Positions 17,195 through 30,193 of a stretch of DNA of 32,881 nt are shown here, in pieces. Every line of letters starts with the position of its first letter. Positions within the stretch are counted from its first letter, which is position 1. The DNA is from Clostridia bacterium (GTDB lineage: Bacteria > Bacillota > Clostridia > Oscillospirales > CAG-272), in assembly GCA_017621695.1 (NCBI GenBank), contig JAGASP010000031.1, forward strand, positions 1 to 32,881. The letters run 5' to 3'. Below the pieces are notes generated by a model. The model was not told the origin of the DNA and did not search any database. It worked only from the letters and a program-made list of their open reading frames with translations. Made by a program: the position numbers and the translations under genes.

Positions 17195-17267
17195 AAAATT
17201 GCATTTGAGCAACAAACACCGAGCAAGCCTTGACGCCATATGCAAAAACGGCAGAATGGAGAATATC

Positions 17268-18404
17268 ATGCAAAACTACGATATCGCGGCCTACATCTGG
17301 CCGTCCTATACCGGAAAAGAATTCCGTGCCCGCCAGTTCTGGCCCGACGGCATCGGAGAATGGCAGACGGTCATGTCCGTCCCCTCCCGTATGCCCTCAA
17401 AACCCGCCGACTACGAGTGGGATCGCAAGCCTCTGTGGGGCTGCTGTGACGAGGCCGACCCCAAGGTCATGGAAATGCAGATCGACGAGGCCGTCCGTCA
17501 CGGCGTCAACGTCTTCATCTACGACTGGTACTGGTATGACCGCCGCCCCTTCCTCGAGCAGTGCCTCGACGAAGGATTTTTGGGCGCATCCAATAATGAA
17601 AAGATGAAATTTTACATCATGTGGGCCAACCACGACGCAGGTTACACGTGGGACGTCCGCCTCTCCGACCTTTTGTGGCGCGGACAAGACCCTAACGTCT
17701 GGCTGGGCGCGGTGGACCGTCATGAGTTTGAGATCGTCGCCCATCGCATCATCGAGAAATATTTCTCCCGCCCCAACTACTACAAGATCAACGGCAAGCC
17801 CCTGTTCATGATCTACGACGTGGACAATCTTGTGAAGGGTCTGGGCGGTATCGAGGCAACCAAGGATGCCTTAGAGTGGTTCCGCGCAGAGACCGTCAAG
17901 GCAGGACATCCGGGTCTTGAGCTGCAGCTGACAGGCTGGGGTGAGCGCATGAACAACATGAGCGGCGTGGACGGAAACAAATACCTCTCCACCAAGGAGG
18001 TCGTTCCCGCGCTTGGCTTTGACAGCGTGACCAACTACCAGTTCGTCCATTTCTGCAACATGAACCGTGACTACGCCGACATCCTCCCCGAGGTCTACGC
18101 TGAGTGGGCTCGCATGGATCGCGACTACACCGTCCCCTTCTATCCCCATGTCTCCATCGGTTGGGACAACAACCCCCGCTTCCGCAGCTTTGTGCCCAAC
18201 GTCTGCATGAATAACACCCCCGAGATGTTCGAGCAGGCGCTCATCAAGGCCAAGGAGTACGTGGACAGCCACAACCTCCCCGCGCCCCTCATCACCATCA
18301 ACAGCTGGAACGAGTGGACGGAAACCTCCTATCTGGAGCCCGATACCAAGTACGGCTATGGGTATCTGGAGGCCATTCGGCGGGTCTTTGCGGAAAAGGC
18401 ATAA
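17268..18404 (+). CDS. GH99-like/WbsX-family glycan protein
   Basis: The 378-residue single-domain protein begins YDIAAYIWPSYTG and contains VNVFIYDWYWYDRRPFLEQCLDEGFL, MKFYIMWANHDA, KPLFMIYDV, and the C-terminal ITINSWNEWTETSYLEPD followed by YLEAI. These are the hallmarks of the WbsX/GH99-like family (Pfam calls it glycosyltransferase WbsX). Members occur in polysaccharide loci but their reaction is poorly defined. There is no signal peptide. I chose the ATG at 17268 because GGAGA lies 5-9 nt upstream; the in-frame ATG at 17256 overlaps that ribosome binding site. The family overlaps with the core of the three-domain protein at 658-2793, but the two differ greatly in sequence and length. 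It is monocistronic, with its own promoter and terminator. Confidence 0.82.
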   Translation: MQNYDIAAYIWPSYTGKEFRARQFWPDGIGEWQTVMSVPSRMPSKPADYEWDRKPLWGCCDEADPKVMEMQIDEAVRHGVNVFIYDWYWYDRRPFLEQCLDEGFLGASNNEKMKFYIMWANHDAGYTWDVRLSDLLWRGQDPNVWLGAVDRHEFEIVAHRIIEKYFSRPNYYKINGKPLFMIYDVDNLVKGLGGIEATKDALEWFRAETVKAGHPGLELQLTGWGERMNNMSGVDGNKYLSTKEVVPALGFDSVTNYQFVHFCNMNRDYADILPEVYAEWARMDRDYTVPFYPHVSIGWDNNPRFRSFVPNVCMNNTPEMFEQALIKAKEYVDSHNLPAPLITINSWNEWTETSYLEPDTKYGYGYLEAIRRVFAEKA

Positions 18405-18450
18405 GCCGTGTACGACGTGACCGACAAAGACCGAGGCAGCAGGCAGAAAT

Positions 18451-18489
18451 AAAAGCAAAAGAGACACCGTCGGTGTCTCTTTTGCTTTT
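18451..18489. terminator. Bidirectional intrinsic terminator
   Basis: An 18-bp perfect stem (18451-18468 with 18472-18489) has a 3-nt loop GTC. The outer part is A/T-rich, giving T runs in both directions, and the core is GAGACACC/GGTGTCTC. It separates the convergent GH99-like gene and the sigma-associated membrane protein gene. Confidence 0.95.
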
Positions 18490-18529
18490 GGAGAAAATGC
18501 GGGATGAAAAGCTTGGGCGCAGAGGCGAT

Positions 18530-20104
18530 CTATGAAACCGCCTCCAAGCCGTATTCGCTCAGATGTGCCGCCAGCTCGCGGGCGTAGGGGAAGGGATCTG
18601 TGGTGGACTCCACGGGCTCTGCAGGCATATGCCACGCGGCTGTTGTTTCCACGCCCAGCATACGGTAAGAGAGGTGGAGCAGGACGCCGAGGTTCAGTTC
18701 CTCGTCGGGGGTGAGGGGCTGACCCTCGTGGGAGAGGATGTAGTCGAGAATGTAGGGGACGGCGTAGGGGCCGAAGACGGTGACGAGGGAGGCGTCAAAC
18801 TGGTAATCGGTGAGGTCATGTGACAGATACCATTTGAAGTCAGACGAGGTGTCTTCCAACTGGCGGGTGATTCTGTCTTGATTGGCGGCGGCCTCTTCGG
18901 CGGAGATGAAGGGGTAAATGGGGCGGAGGCCGTTTTTTTCGATGTGGTCAAGCAGGTACTGTGACAACAGGACGAAGCTGTCCCGTCCTTGTACATAACC
19001 GTCGGGGCTGATCCAATGAATAGAATAATGGCCGTCTACCCCCAACATATGGTATGCCGCTGACAATAGGAAACAACGATCTCGATACTCTCCCCACAAA
19101 GCATAATCCGGATTTGGGCTGAGGGCAACCGCATTATAGATATCTTGACTATTGATGATATATTCGAGTATATAAGGAATAGTCTCTACACCAAGGGAGG
19201 AAATGACAGCGAATGCGTTATGCAACTCCTTATCTGAAATAGACGAGGCAGTTGGATACCAATCGGAGTAGAAGTATTCGAAATTGAATTCGTTGAGTTT
19301 TTTGTATACATCTTCTTTGGATAAGTTGGAGGTTGTATTCTCTGTGGGAGCATCTTCGGTAGAAGGCGTTTTGGTTTTGCTCAGCTCTTCGGGCGAAGGC
19401 AACCCGTTTTTTTGCAAATGTTGCATCAGAGCTTGTAAATTCACAAACACATCTTGGGAAAAATGGTTTTCCTTCCGATACCACTCACTCGTATCCGTAA
19501 TCCCCAAATTATGATAAGCAAAATGCAGGATCACGCCCAGCCGTTTCAACTCCTCGGCATCCGTCTCCCCCTCGTGCTCCATGATGTAGTCCAGCATATA
19601 GGGCACACCGTACACGCCGAACGCCTTCACGGGAGTATACTGGTCGAAATAGTAGGACGGGTCGTTCAGAATATTCCACTTGTAGTCCAGCCCATCCAGA
19701 ATAGCGATCAGCTCGTCCTTGCGGGCTTCGGCCTCCTCGGGGGTGTCGATGACCGTGTCCTCGGTGATGGCCTCGGTCTCTTCTTGCGTATTTTCTTCGG
19801 TTTCGGGCTCGGTCACAGCCTCGCTATCTGTATCCGTCTCCATGACAGGCGGCAGGTCGGTGCTGTCAAGCGGCGTTACGGGCGGGGTCTCGGGGGAAAC
19901 GCGTCCCGCCAGCACCACGAAGATCAGCACGCCGAGCGCCACCGCACCCGAGATCACGGCGGCACCGAGGCCGCTGTTCAGAAAGCGGGACAGGGGGCGA
20001 GCATGGGGGCGGTTCTTCAGAATCACACCCGTGACAGGGTCGCTTTCCAGAATGTAGCGATCGTCAATGTCGGTCAGCTTTTCGGCAATCAGCATGGGAT
20101 TCAT
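18530..20104 (-). CDS. Membrane protein with triplicated extracellular domain, probable anti-sigma/regulator partner of the ECF sigma factor
   Basis: The 524-residue protein has a short cytoplasmic N-terminus with LTDIDDRYILE (10-20), one membrane helix (~44-66), and an acidic Pro/Thr/Glu linker (~69-125). Three copies of an unrecognised helical domain follow (~121-235, ~262-393, ~402-520). Each copy has a PYxLxYI segment (167-173, 310-316, 450-456), a YHxLG or YRMLG segment (197-201, 351-355, 480-484) and a final xxxxGL. Its ATG overlaps the sigma stop as ATGA, which implies translational coupling. The short DIDDRYI-type cytoplasmic segment before a membrane helix is common in proteins encoded beside clostridial ECF sigma factors. 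A role as anti-sigma factor or sensor is therefore inferred, not shown. The middle domain is encoded by DNA of clearly lower GC than its flanks. Confidence 0.75.
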   Translation of the reverse strand: MNPMLIAEKLTDIDDRYILESDPVTGVILKNRPHARPLSRFLNSGLGAAVISGAVALGVLIFVVLAGRVSPETPPVTPLDSTDLPPVMETDTDSEAVTEPETEENTQEETEAITEDTVIDTPEEAEARKDELIAILDGLDYKWNILNDPSYYFDQYTPVKAFGVYGVPYMLDYIMEHEGETDAEELKRLGVILHFAYHNLGITDTSEWYRKENHFSQDVFVNLQALMQHLQKNGLPSPEELSKTKTPSTEDAPTENTTSNLSKEDVYKKLNEFNFEYFYSDWYPTASSISDKELHNAFAVISSLGVETIPYILEYIINSQDIYNAVALSPNPDYALWGEYRDRCFLLSAAYHMLGVDGHYSIHWISPDGYVQGRDSFVLLSQYLLDHIEKNGLRPIYPFISAEEAAANQDRITRQLEDTSSDFKWYLSHDLTDYQFDASLVTVFGPYAVPYILDYILSHEGQPLTPDEELNLGVLLHLSYRMLGVETTAAWHMPAEPVESTTDPFPYARELAAHLSEYGLEAVS

Positions 20105-20664
20105 ACACGGTACCCCCTTTCTGTCAGGAATGCTTTCAGCTTTTCTCTGGTGCGGGACAGGCGCATGGTCACCGCCTTGGGCGTGAGACCGTGGGTCTTG
20201 GCAATATCTCTGACGGCGTTGCCGTGCCAGTAGCGGCTGCAAAACAGGATCCGCTCCTCTTGGGTTAGGGAGGCTAAAAATTGATTCAGCAGGGCGGGAA
20301 GCGCGCTTGCCTCCTCGTCCCGCATGGGGATGCAGTCCCCCAGCTCCTCCAGGGACACTTCCAGCTCGCGGTTGCGGCGGGCGGCGCGGTTGGCTTTATA
20401 GCGGTTGAGGGAAAGATTACGGACAATGCGCCCGAGGTAGGCGCGGAGGGAGTGCGGACGGTTGGGCGGGATGGAGTTCCACGCCTTGAGGTAGGTGTCG
20501 TTGACACACTCCTCGGCGTCCTGCCGATCCTCCAGAATGTTCAGGGATAGGCGCAGGCAAAACCCCCCATAGCGACGGTCGGTCTCTGTGATGGCCTGCT
20601 CGTCGCGGGCAAAGTACAGGTCTATGATGCGGCCGTCGGCCTGTTTTTCGTCGACGTGGTTCAT
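20101..20664 (-). CDS. ECF-type RNA polymerase sigma factor
   Basis: The 187-residue protein has sigma region 2 at ~15-90 (FARDEQAITETDRRYGGFCLRLSLNILEDRQDAEECVNDTYLKAWNSIPP) and region 4 at ~128-185 (ALLNQFLASLTQEERILFCSRYWHGNAVRDIAKTHGLTPKAVTMRLSRTREKLKAFL, a helix-turn-helix). No region 3 is present, as expected for ECF sigmas. The DRQDAEECVNDTYLKAWN pattern is typical of the large clostridial ECF group related to SigV-like factors. The ATG has AAAGGAGG upstream. Its stop overlaps the start of the membrane protein by 4 bp. A possible self-recognised promoter is at 20711-20737. The target genes are unknown. Confidence 0.93.
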   Translation of the reverse strand: MNHVDEKQADGRIIDLYFARDEQAITETDRRYGGFCLRLSLNILEDRQDAEECVNDTYLKAWNSIPPNRPHSLRAYLGRIVRNLSLNRYKANRAARRNRELEVSLEELGDCIPMRDEEASALPALLNQFLASLTQEERILFCSRYWHGNAVRDIAKTHGLTPKAVTMRLSRTREKLKAFLTERGYRV

Positions 20665-20710
20665 GAGAGCCTCCTTTCTGTGAGCGGTACGGTGTGTACC
20701 TTCACTTATA

Positions 20711-20737
20711 TAGACAACCTTTTCTCCAAAATGTCCC
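20711..20737 (-). promoter_or_regulatory. Candidate ECF-type (autoregulatory) promoter
   Basis: On the minus strand GGGACATTTT (20737-20728) is followed by GTCTA (20715-20711). There are 16 bp between GGGACA and GTCTA. This resembles the AAC-rich -35 / CGTC -10 layout of ECF promoters. It lies ~45 bp before the sigma ATG. A second GGGACA lies 12 bp upstream (20749-20744). This is a pattern match only. Confidence 0.4.
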
Positions 20738-26611: not shown

Positions 26612-26997
26612 AGGACCGCCAAAATGTTTCGGGTGTGCAACCCGCCGATCAGATCAACCGTCTCGTGTCTACGCTGGGTCTCTGCCGCCGTGCCGGCGGA
26701 CTCATCCTGGGTGCACCCATGGTATGCGAAGCCATGCGGGATCCCAAAAAGGCGCCCATTGCCGTGATCGAAGCCTGTGACACGTCGGACGGAACGCACG
26801 ACAAGCTGATCTCCAAGTGCAGCTATTATCAAGTCCCGCATTATCGCATTCCCGTTACGACCGAGCTTTTGGGACATACCGTCGGAAAATCCGGCGCGGT
26901 CGCCGCCGTTGGCATCACCCACGAAGGGCTTTTCGTTTCTCTCAAAAAATATCTCCCCGAGCCCTCACCCTTGAAAGAGGTATACCACCATTCTTAA
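26608..26997 (+). CDS. L7Ae-family ribosomal/RNA-binding protein (YlxQ)
   Basis: The 129-residue protein has the L7Ae/L30e/S12e fold: NRLVSTLGLCRRAGGLILGAPMVCEAMRD, then VIEACDTSDGTHDKLISKCSYYQVP and TTELLGHTVGKSGAVAAVGITHEGL. It matches YlxQ, a K-turn-binding protein encoded between ylxR and infB in Firmicutes. The ATG overlaps the ylxR stop as ATGA, showing translational coupling. The gap to infB is 35 bp. Confidence 0.92.
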   Translation: MKDRQNVSGVQPADQINRLVSTLGLCRRAGGLILGAPMVCEAMRDPKKAPIAVIEACDTSDGTHDKLISKCSYYQVPHYRIPVTTELLGHTVGKSGAVAAVGITHEGLFVSLKKYLPEPSPLKEVYHHS

Positions 26998-27032
26998 TAT
27001 GCATTTGATCCTTTATCATATAGGAGGAAAAC

Positions 27033-30000
27033 ATGGCCGTATTCAATCCGCAATTTAAAATTAACCAGATGGCAAAGGACATGGGTCTGAAGAGCAAGGA
27101 GCTGACAGATCTCTTGACAGCCAAGGGTATCTCTGACGTGAAAAATCAGAAATCTCTGACTGAACATGAATTCAGTGTGCTGTTTGCTACCCTGACCGAA
27201 GCAAATCAGGTTGACAACATCTATGACTATATGGATGGAATTACCTGTATTCCCTCCAAGAAGGCTGCCGAGCGTGCCGCCGCCGAAAAGGCCGCTGCCG
27301 CCGAAAAGGCTGCCGCCGAAAAGGCTGCTGCCGAAAAGGCCGCTGCCGAAAAGGCTGCTACTGAAAAGGCTGCTGCTGAAAAGGCCGCTGCTGAAAAGGC
27401 TGCTGCAGAGAAGGCCGCTGCCGAAAAGGCTGCTGCAGAGAAGGCTGCTGCTGAAAAGGCTGCCGCAGAGAAGGCCGCTGCCGAAAAGGCTGCCGCAGAG
27501 AAGGCTGCTGCCGAGAAGGACGCTGCCGAAAAGGCTGCTGCCGAGAAGGCCGCCGCAGAGCGTGCTGCAGAAAAGGCCGCCGCTGAAAGAGCGGCACTTG
27601 AGCGCACTGCCAAAGCGTTGATCGCACAGCGTCAGGCCGCCGCTCAGCAGAAAAACAACACATCCGATCGCCGTCAGGAGCGTCCCGCAGGCAACCCCTC
27701 TGCCCAGACGCGTCCCGCTGGTGACCGTCCTGCAGGTGACCGTCCCACAGGCGACCGTCCCACAGGCGACCGTCCCCGCAACGGAGATGCATCCCGTGCA
27801 CCCGCCGCAGGTGGCCGCGATGCTCGCTTTGCGCAGGGTCAGAAGACCGATCGCTTTGCACAGGCAGGTCGTCCCGACAGCCGCGACAATCGCGATAATC
27901 GCGGTCAGCAGAAGAACGACCGTCCTCAGAATGCGCGCCCCGACAACCGCGGGGACCGCTTCGACGGACGCGAGCGCGGCGAGGATTACGTACCCAACAC
28001 CCCCCGCGAGCACTTCCAGGTGCAGGCCATCGTCCGTGAGCAGACCCCCAAGGGCGGTATCCAGCAGACCAAGCCTCGCGGCGCGACCCGCGTGGTCGAT
28101 ACCCGCTCTGCCGATGACGTGGATCTTTCCAAGTACGATGAGCGTTTGGATTCCTTTGTGTCCGAGCGCGTACAGGATACCCACGGCGGTAGCCAGAAGA
28201 TCGGCAAGAAGCCCGGTCAGCAGGCAAACGGCCGTCCCGGCTCCAAGAAGCAACAGCCGCAGCCTATGATGAAGGGCGGCAAGCCCATGCCCGGTAAGAA
28301 GGCGGCTCCTGTCAAGAAGCAGCCTCTCAACGTAGAGATCCCCGACGAGATCGTGGTCAGCGACTTGGCCGCGCGTCTCAAGGTGACGGTCGGTGAAGTG
28401 GTCAAGCGCCTCATGCTGATGGGCATGATGGTGACCGCAAATCAGACCGTAGATTTTGACACCGCCGCCATCGTTGCCGATGAGCTGGGCGCTGTCGTTA
28501 CCAAGGAAGTCGTGGTTACCATTGAAGAAAAGCTCTTCGATACCACCGAGGATACCGAGGACGTGCTGAAGCCCCGTGCGCCTGTTGTGTGCGTCATGGG
28601 TCACGTTGACCACGGTAAGACCTCTCTTCTGGACGCGATCCGTCACACCCACGTGACCGCAGGCGAGGCCGGCGGTATCACCCAGCACATCGGTGCTTAC
28701 CGTGTGCAGATCAACGGTCAGGACATTACCTTCCTGGACACCCCCGGTCACGAGGCCTTTACCGCCATGCGTGCCCGCGGTGCACAGGCTACCGATATTG
28801 CCATTCTGGTCGTCGCCGCAGACGACGGTATCATGCCCCAGACGGTGGAGGCGATCAACCACGCCAAGGCCGCAGGTATTGACATTGTGGTTGCCATCAA
28901 CAAAATGGATAAGCCCGGTGCCGATCCCGAAAACATCAAGCAGGAGCTTACAAAATACGAGCTCGTTCCCGAGGAGTGGGGCGGTGATGTCATCTGCGTT
29001 CCCGTCTCCGCATTGACCGGCATGGGTATTGACGATCTTCTGGAGAACGTACTGCTCGTTGCCGAAGTGAAGGAGCTCAGAGCCAATCCCGCACGCCGTG
29101 CCAAGGGTATTGTCATCGAGGCCAAGCTGGATAAGGGTCGCGGCCCCGTCGCTACCGTTTTGGTACAGAACGGTACCTTGAAGAGCGGTGACATTGTCAT
29201 CGCGGGTACAGCCGTGGGTCACGTCAGAGTCATGTCCGACCACAACGGTCGTGCCGTCAAGGTGGCAGGTCCTTCGGTTCCCGTAGAGATCACGGGTCTT
29301 TCCGACGTGCCGGATGCAGGTGACGAGTTCGAGGCAGTCATCGACGAGCGTATGGCTCGTGAGCTGGCTGAGCAGCGCCGCAACAAGGCCAAGGAAGAGA
29401 TCTTCAAGGCCAATGCAAGAGCCAACCTCAATGACCTCTTCAGCCAGATGAATGCAGGTATCAAGGACCTTAATATCATCGTCAAGGCAGACGTGGACGG
29501 TACGGTGGAGGCTGTGAAGGCATCTCTGCAGAAGCTTTCCAACGAAGAAGTCCGCGTGCGTGTCATCCACTCGGCTTGCGGCGGTATCACCGAGGGCGAC
29601 GTTACCTTCGCCGCTGCATCCAACGCCATCATCGTGGGCTTCAACGTTCGTCCCGATAAGCAGGCGATGGATTCCGCTGACAGACAGAACGTGGAGATCC
29701 GTACCTACCGTGTCATTTACGAGTGCATCGAGGAGATCGAGGCCGCTATGAAGGGTATGCTTGCGCCCAAGTTCCGTGAGAGCATTCTGGGTCATGCCGA
29801 GGTGCGTCAGACCATCCACGTGCCCAATGTGGGCACCATTGCCGGTTCTTATATCACCGACGGTAAGATTGCCCGTTCCGCCCAGATCCGTATCGTCCGC
29901 GACGGTATCGTGATCTTTGAAGATAAGATCAGTTCCCTCCGCCGCTTCAAGGACGACGTCAAGGAAGTGGCCACCGGCTACGAATGCGGTGTCGGTCTGG

Positions 30001-30068
30001 ATCGCTTCAACGACATCAAGGTCGGTGACATTCTCGAGGCCTTCGTCATGGAGGAGATTCCTCAGTAA
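27033..30068 (+). CDS. infB: Translation initiation factor IF-2 with long Ala/Glu/Lys repeat region
   Basis: The 1011-residue protein begins with an IF2-N type domain (~1-60). A run of about 20 AAAEK-type pentads (~76-193) follows, then an Arg/Asp/Gly/Pro-rich stretch with GDRP(A/T) repeats (~225-310). A second IF2-N domain is at ~430-490. The GTPase domain carries GHVDHGKTS (G1, ~523), [10 protein letters not shown] (G2), DTPGHEAF (G3), NKMD (G4) and SAL (G5); domains II-IV follow. It delivers initiator fMet-tRNA to the 30S subunit. The ATG has TAGGAGGAAA upstream. The pentad run is longer than in most IF-2 proteins and is nearly pure at the DNA level, so length variation between strains is likely. 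It is the last gene of the conserved block; rbfA does not follow. Confidence 0.97.
27259..27610 (+). repeat. 15-bp tandem repeats within infB encoding AAAEK pentads
   Basis: The coding repeat of about 20 units has the DNA theme GCTGC(C/T)GA(A/G)AAGGC. It is interrupted only by single changes (T, D and R residues). The predicted product is a long charged helix. Confidence 0.9.
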
Positions 30069-30079
30069 GGGCGGGGGAG

Positions 30080-30145
30080 CACGCAAGGAACCTTCTTGAA
30101 AGAAGGTTCCTCGACCTCCAAGAACTTTTATCAAAGGATAGGAGA
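30080..30145 (+). repeat. Terminator-like repeat element after infB
   Basis: An 11-bp perfect stem (AGGAACCTTCT at 30086-30096 with AGAAGGTTCCT at 30101-30111) has loop TGAA. CGACCTCCAAGAACTTTTAT follows. It belongs to the family at 32665 and 32820. It lies between infB and the Nudix gene, where rbfA would be expected. Confidence 0.8.
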
Positions 30146-30193
30146 TATCTATATTGAAAAAAGAAACCGCCACAAAAAAAGGAGTGATGAAAG

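Follow-up and report, generated by a model that had tools for sequence, protein, structure and literature searches.

The question raised by this locus is whether the membrane protein encoded directly behind an ECF sigma factor gene serves as the anti-sigma factor of that sigma, and what its large outer part is for. Both genes lie on the minus strand of the window, by which is meant the whole stretch of 32,881 nucleotides analysed here. The sigma gene (20101..20664) encodes 187 residues that match regions 2 and 4 in Pfam (Sigma70_r2, E = 4.8e-11; r4_2, E = 1.3e-6) and score 71.1 bits against the NCBIfam sigma70-ECF model, whose cut-off is 42.9; sigma-70 regions 2 and 4, a length near 190 residues and agreement with a curated ECF model thus identify the product as an ECF sigma factor. 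The membrane partner, a putative anti-sigma factor of 524 residues (18530..20104), begins with an ATG at 20104, and the sigma stop codon ends at 20101, so that the two genes share the four bases ATGA. A mechanical list of open reading frames starts the partner at a TTG at 20242, giving 570 residues, but the ATG is the likelier start.

The first-pass annotation had proposed this overlap and had described a partner with a short cytoplasmic segment, one helix and an acidic linker; the places and strand of both genes, the sequence and a hydropathy scan bear this out. Residues 1–45 (19970..20104, minus strand) precede the helix, open with MNPMLIAEKLTDIDDRYILES and carry a family motif around DIDDRYILES; profile matches and co-variation with the sigma, discussed below, mark them as a putative sigma-binding segment. 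A 19-residue scan finds one hydrophobic segment in the entire protein, at 41–73, and hydropathy together with the family alignment places the core of the single transmembrane helix at about residues 46–66 (19907..19969, minus strand). It is followed in the sequence by an acidic linker rich in Thr and Glu, at about residues 68–120 (19745..19903, minus strand). Behind the partner gene, an 18-bp hairpin with A/T-rich stem ends (18451..18489) is a probable terminator between it and a convergent WbsX/GH99-like gene (17199–18404, plus strand); folding of 18405–18530 gives a z-score of −3.13, with none of 200 shuffles as good. Elsewhere in the window, at 26994–30173 on the minus strand, a 1059-residue open reading frame has no Pfam match at E ≤ 0.001 and is overlapped on the opposite strand by one of 1011 residues.

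The pair is far from solitary. With the window's own counted in, 29 such sigma genes occur in the source genome (127 contigs, 2.62 Mb in total, 90.6% complete) at E < 1e-20, and 25 of them overlap a partner by four bases; in seven further genomes of the genus, 39 out of 40 do so. The pairing method favours a start at −4 where one is available, and the count for the source genome without that preference is likewise 25 of 29. Altogether 64 of 69 distinct sigma genes have a partner at exactly −4, with 62 ATG and two GTG starts. Among the other five, one partner each lies at −8, +15 (alternatively read at +12 from a GTG) and +39, and two sigma genes, one of them at a contig end, have no partner. 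The conserved linkage to ECF sigma genes on which the original proposal depended is therefore present. All 12 genomes of the genus that were searched carry the sigma (E ≤ 1e-15), in 2 to 42 copies each, the 42-copy genome being 3.5 Mb with 5% contamination. In the order, at least 154 of 295 genomes have it (E ≤ 1e-20), mostly in few copies, and these counts are lower bounds because no more than 11 candidates per genome were scored. At one locus of the collection (L061, G000:C58:10000-26000), four sigma/partner modules lie within about 7 kb of a single contig, two of them divergently transcribed. Judged by titles and the beginnings of abstracts, a scope outside which the main ECF reclassification falls, no paper was recognised as describing this module family. 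By sequence, the window pair belongs to a set of 29 paralogous ECF sigma modules, of which most are apparently sigma/anti-sigma pairs.

The inner part of the partner is the more constant one. Across the 64 pairs the portion before the helix is 38–74 residues long (median 51), the net charge over the 56 residues that follow the helix averages −8.8, and 61 partners show one hydrophobic segment while two show weak extra ones; an initial helix scan covered the first 110 residues, and a later one the whole proteins. One partner of 928 residues (L108:3578-6361, plus strand) combines the family N-terminus with about ten hydrophobic segments and is a many-pass membrane protein. A profile of the N-terminus (A6), made from the first 75 residues of 24 partners, has 25 matches in the source genome, each immediately following one of the 29 sigma genes. 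Since 22 of the source genome's own partners went into the profile, 22 of these matches are expected, and the information that it adds is the absence of any match away from the sigma genes: this profile search of the genome found no copy of the family N-terminus elsewhere. Four of the 29 sigma genes lack a profile match, and one has no partner. No known anti-sigma factor resembling the N-terminus was found in Pfam or, by profile, among PDB sequences (best E = 0.08). The partner has the features expected of a membrane anti-sigma factor, namely a gene directly behind that of the sigma, one transmembrane helix and a conserved cytoplasmic N-terminus.

The outer part behaves differently. The ectodomains of 25 pairs from the source genome fall into 17 BLAST clusters by single linkage. 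Among the 28 partners in that genome, four have LRR_5 and the other 24 no Pfam family at E ≤ 0.01; a carbohydrate-binding module is found by Pfam in none. The 39 partners from other genomes of the genus (loci L096–L115), some of them cut by contig ends, include 11 with LRR_5, two with RHS repeats, one with a GDSL lipase domain and single cases of others; matches to MG2, GEVED and NEW3 occur in this set. Exchange is visible among close relatives. After the sister locus described below, the nearest sigmas fetched, all from other genomes of the genus, are 72, 71 and 65% identical to that of the window; the first 70 residues of their partners are 52, 55 and 43% identical to the window partner, and their ectodomains are LRR.

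Mantel tests, which omit the five sigma genes lacking the precise four-base overlap, express the same pattern. For the 25 pairs of the source genome, sigma distances correlate with distances over residues 1–26 of the partner (r = 0.40; 0 of 5000 permutations). For the ectodomains r is 0.07 (1434 of 5000), a value lowered trivially by alignments that are near saturation at a mean identity of 0.18. Over all 64 pairs the N-terminus gives 0.515 and the ectodomain 0.326, both with 0 of 5000 permutations. Such correlations are no proof of contact, because linked genes are inherited together. With the overlap in 64 of 69 cases and the 25 profile matches, this co-variation gives good sequence support to the pairing of sigma and anti-sigma that had first been suggested. 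It is rather probable that the sigma and the N-terminus evolve as a unit to which the ectodomain is attached as a replaceable cassette. The interest of such a family would be that a sigma/anti-sigma core remains coupled through many exchanges of its sensor within one genome.

These features are best combined, with somewhat better than even confidence, in an autoregulated sensor module in which the N-terminus inhibits the sigma, the ectodomain senses and the module's own promoter is transcribed. The short cytoplasmic segment of the partner would keep its sigma inactive until the ectodomain, which in the window protein is an acidic stalk bearing three helical domains, encounters a ligand, a partner protein or damage outside the cell. 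The partner would then be cleaved outside and within the membrane by regulated intramembrane proteolysis; the genome has two genes of Peptidase_M50, the site-2 protease family, which is also present in all 14 control genomes. The freed sigma would transcribe from the promoter-like sequence GGGACA-N16-GTCTATATAAGTGAAG, its own operon first, and the ectodomain cassette would determine what is sensed. The module, a gene switch together with a membrane protein by which the switch is probably held off, is present in nearly thirty copies in this gut bacterium, and the widely differing outer parts may be the lineage's way to sense many outside signals.

Upstream sequences provide the evidence for autoregulation. 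In the window, a putative −35 element, GGGACA (20732..20737, minus strand), and a putative −10 element, GTCTATATAAGTGAAG (20700..20715, minus strand), precede the sigma gene, and the latter resembles its counterparts upstream of paralogous sigma genes. Gibbs sampling had yielded A/T-rich sequence only and was replaced by a seeded search, the seed being chosen by eye from the upstream regions. One of the 69 regions was omitted for its length, and all were cut at guessed sigma starts that may be off by some 25 bases, the window's included. In 47 of 68 regions, among them 20 of the source genome's 28, a motif with the −10 element GTCTWTATARGTGAAG exceeds the 95% level of the shuffled null; some of the 47 resemble A/T-rich chance matches, and 21 regions have no motif above the threshold. 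The mean score is 10.4 in real regions versus 6.8–7.3 in ten shuffled and refitted sets, where shuffling preserved base composition only and not dinucleotides. Over the 47 regions the motif co-varies with the sigma, both in the −35 element (r = 0.347) and in the −10 element (r = 0.236; 0 of 5000 permutations for each), and a control stretch gives r = 0.041 (635 of 5000). Within the 20 regions of the source genome the −35 correlation is matched in 30 of 5000 permutations, and that of the −10 element falls short of significance (1316 of 5000).

Genome-wide, the pattern of the window's subclass occurs with at most one mismatch at seven places, all 28–49 bases from these sigma genes. A fuller pattern, with at most three mismatches, finds five of the same seven, and a second-subclass pattern finds two places, both before sigma genes. 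Reversed-pattern controls give one, two and no places, respectively. The nine distinct places all precede these sigma genes, so that autoregulation of the module is likely, but the patterns reach only nine of the 29. No target beyond these sigma genes appears genome-wide at the stringency used, where diverged targets would be invisible because the patterns derive from these same genes. Paralogous pairs, many of them with related promoters, make two questions approachable: what the ectodomains sense, and how cross-talk among paralogous sigmas is avoided.

The same nine places fit an alternative that is unlikely but survives better than the others: the surface protein might be the main product, with the sigma and N-terminus forming a self-limiting switch whose sole target is its own operon, without a separate regulon, so that each module would present, on a fraction of the cells, an ectodomain that is adhesin-like or a decoy. 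The window operon has two genes, the next gene being convergent behind the probable terminator, and the LRR ectodomains, or RHS in related genomes, would suit such a role. The promoter patterns that favour it are, however, stringent ones taken from the sigma genes themselves and reach only nine of 29. Moreover, a crude gene call puts the next open reading frame in the same direction for 38 of 67 partners (25 convergent, four at an edge), and several of these are another sigma module.

What the proposed sensor module of the window might recognise would depend on its helical domain. The three copies are R1 (19397..19726), R2 (18923..19321) and R3 (18542..18886), all on the minus strand and delimited with a profile (A1) that was built from the repeats themselves; the E value of 1.0e-51 for R1 is that of a sequence within the profile. 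Their alignment has 20 invariant columns. AlphaFold2 predicts R3 as all alpha (pLDDT 80.5, pTM 0.78); a model of the whole ectodomain was poor (pLDDT 60.2, pTM 0.40) and was left unused. In a tree of 12 short sequences, weak at several other nodes, R1 pairs with R3 as its sister (support 0.985) and R2 stands apart as a separate lineage, in a low-GC stretch (0.40–0.51 in 200-base windows). A domain triplicated and unrecognised had been claimed. There are indeed three copies without a significant library match, but their two lineages rule out plain triplication.

Searches for a known identity gave no significant match. The window partner has no significant match in Pfam or NCBIfam, and a COQ9 resemblance over about 26 residues falls below the cut-off (E = 0.025 and 0.063, respectively). 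Neither a known enzyme nor a wall-binding module, the identities against which the domain was to be checked, is matched significantly in Pfam, NCBIfam, PDB sequences or Foldseek; the best PDB-sequence match is a phycobilisome linker (E = 0.032) and the best Foldseek E value is 1.2. No solved-structure family stood out among 348 chains compared by VIA. A HEAT repeat, with its paired helices in an alpha-solenoid, was suggested by the motif LGxxAVPYILxYI, which resembles such repeats, and by weak VIA rows; this assignment was not accepted. A viral origin was likewise discarded, none of 25 matches to one short peptide pattern in viral contigs encoding a relative. The domain is apparently a rare, undescribed family.

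It was found in four genomes, in two of them on an anti-sigma factor. In a sister species the anti-sigma carries R1 alone, and R2–R3 form part of another, secreted-looking protein; the order on one strand is sigma, anti-sigma with R1, a 990-residue secreted-looking protein (L096:3002-5974, minus strand) and the R2–R3 protein. The 990-residue protein has a C-terminal DUF7689 match (26.1 bits, cut-off 22.6) and a DNRLRE-like stretch at 29.6 bits, below the cut-off of 34. Another protein of the sister genome, at least 510 residues long and located at the end of a contig (L127:5643-7175, minus strand), has four copies of the domain. The other two genomes encode the domain as a short stand-alone protein that begins like a lipoprotein; one of these two copies lies about 1.6 kb away from an open reading frame for a ricin-type lectin. 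Multivalent sensing, earlier read from the repeats, stays conjectural with this distribution, the domain being on an anti-sigma in two of four genomes and in a single copy on that of the sister species. For an apparently undescribed family, the DUF7689 protein offers a testable candidate partner.

The position of that protein, between an anti-sigma with R1 and an R2–R3 protein on the same strand, invites a further explanation, which we regard as doubtful: the helical domain could act as an inhibitor of a secreted DUF7689-type protein, or as an immunity-like domain directed at it, and on an anti-sigma it would report that protein from self or from a competitor. The lone lipoprotein-like proteins, one of them near the lectin, would agree with this, and LRR and HEAT immunity proteins are among those described in PMC3482391. 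The same source, however, calls a lipoprotein immunity protein exceptional, the loci are few (four genomes), no DUF7689 gene occupies the corresponding place in the window, and no known immunity family is matched in Pfam or NCBIfam. An equally doubtful but wider view sees in the genus a repertoire of self-contained sigma switches, as many as 42 in a single genome, every one of them confined to its own promoter and built with a minimal (CnrY-like) membrane anti-sigma and a swapped ectodomain (LRR, RHS, lipase, new helical repeats); the ectodomains would recognise proteins of neighbours or the host, and the helical repeat would be an inhibitor or immunity-like domain that has become a sensor. 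If true, this would be a surface recognition system and not a stress response. Least credible is the view that the partner is an ordinary surface protein of the membrane, transcribed together with the sigma, and that its short N-terminus does not bind that sigma; the partner has no recognised anti-sigma domain and co-variation could be plain co-inheritance, but all 25 matches to the N-terminus stand next to these sigma genes, and it co-varies with the sigma while ectodomains are exchanged.

The autoregulated sensor module can be set beside several known systems. Class I anti-sigma factors have a four-helix N-terminal domain, and the curated set described in PMC7406223 kept only those of at least 50 residues; the window partner has 45 residues before its helix, with no Pfam match, within the range given above for its 64 relatives. 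Class II factors of the CnrY type act on an ECF sigma through a short cytoplasmic segment whose two helices wrap the sigma and lie on region 4 and region 2, respectively, as outlined in PMC7406223 and PMC8103513. The likeness here is confined to the length and place of the cytoplasmic segment, without a sequence match, and the window partner differs in bearing a large ectodomain on the same protein; by this analogy the short segment perhaps binds sigma in the class II manner. RsiV, the anti-sigma of the ECF sigma SigV, is reported to bind lysozyme directly and to be destroyed by proteolysis (PMC4183432, PMC5014341). It provides a precedent for direct recognition of a protein ligand by the anti-sigma of an ECF sigma, but Pfam finds no RsiV-type domain in the window partner, and a swapped repertoire replaces the one dedicated receptor.

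The claim in the first-pass annotation that no named system has such a layout was too strong, since SigI/RsgI of Clostridium thermocellum follows the same logic. SigI is not known to be an ECF sigma, unlike the sigma of the window. As described in PMC12203970, the organism has nine paralogous RsgI anti-sigma factors, each with an N-terminal intracellular domain, one helix and divergent C-terminal sensor domains that include unknown ones; release is proteolytic, RseP taking part in the step within the membrane, and most RsgI proteins have a self-cleaving periplasmic domain. No sign of the latter is seen in the window family, there are 29 sigma genes here as against nine anti-sigma factors there, and Pfam finds no carbohydrate-binding module in the 28 partners of the source genome. 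Pfam gives no RsgI N-terminal match at E ≤ 1, and the window sigma passes the ECF model, which places the pair outside the RsgI family proper. What the two share are paralogous anti-sigma factors, an intracellular N-terminus, one helix and divergent sensors, and by this analogy the module is SigI/RsgI-like in logic, making that system its closest working model.
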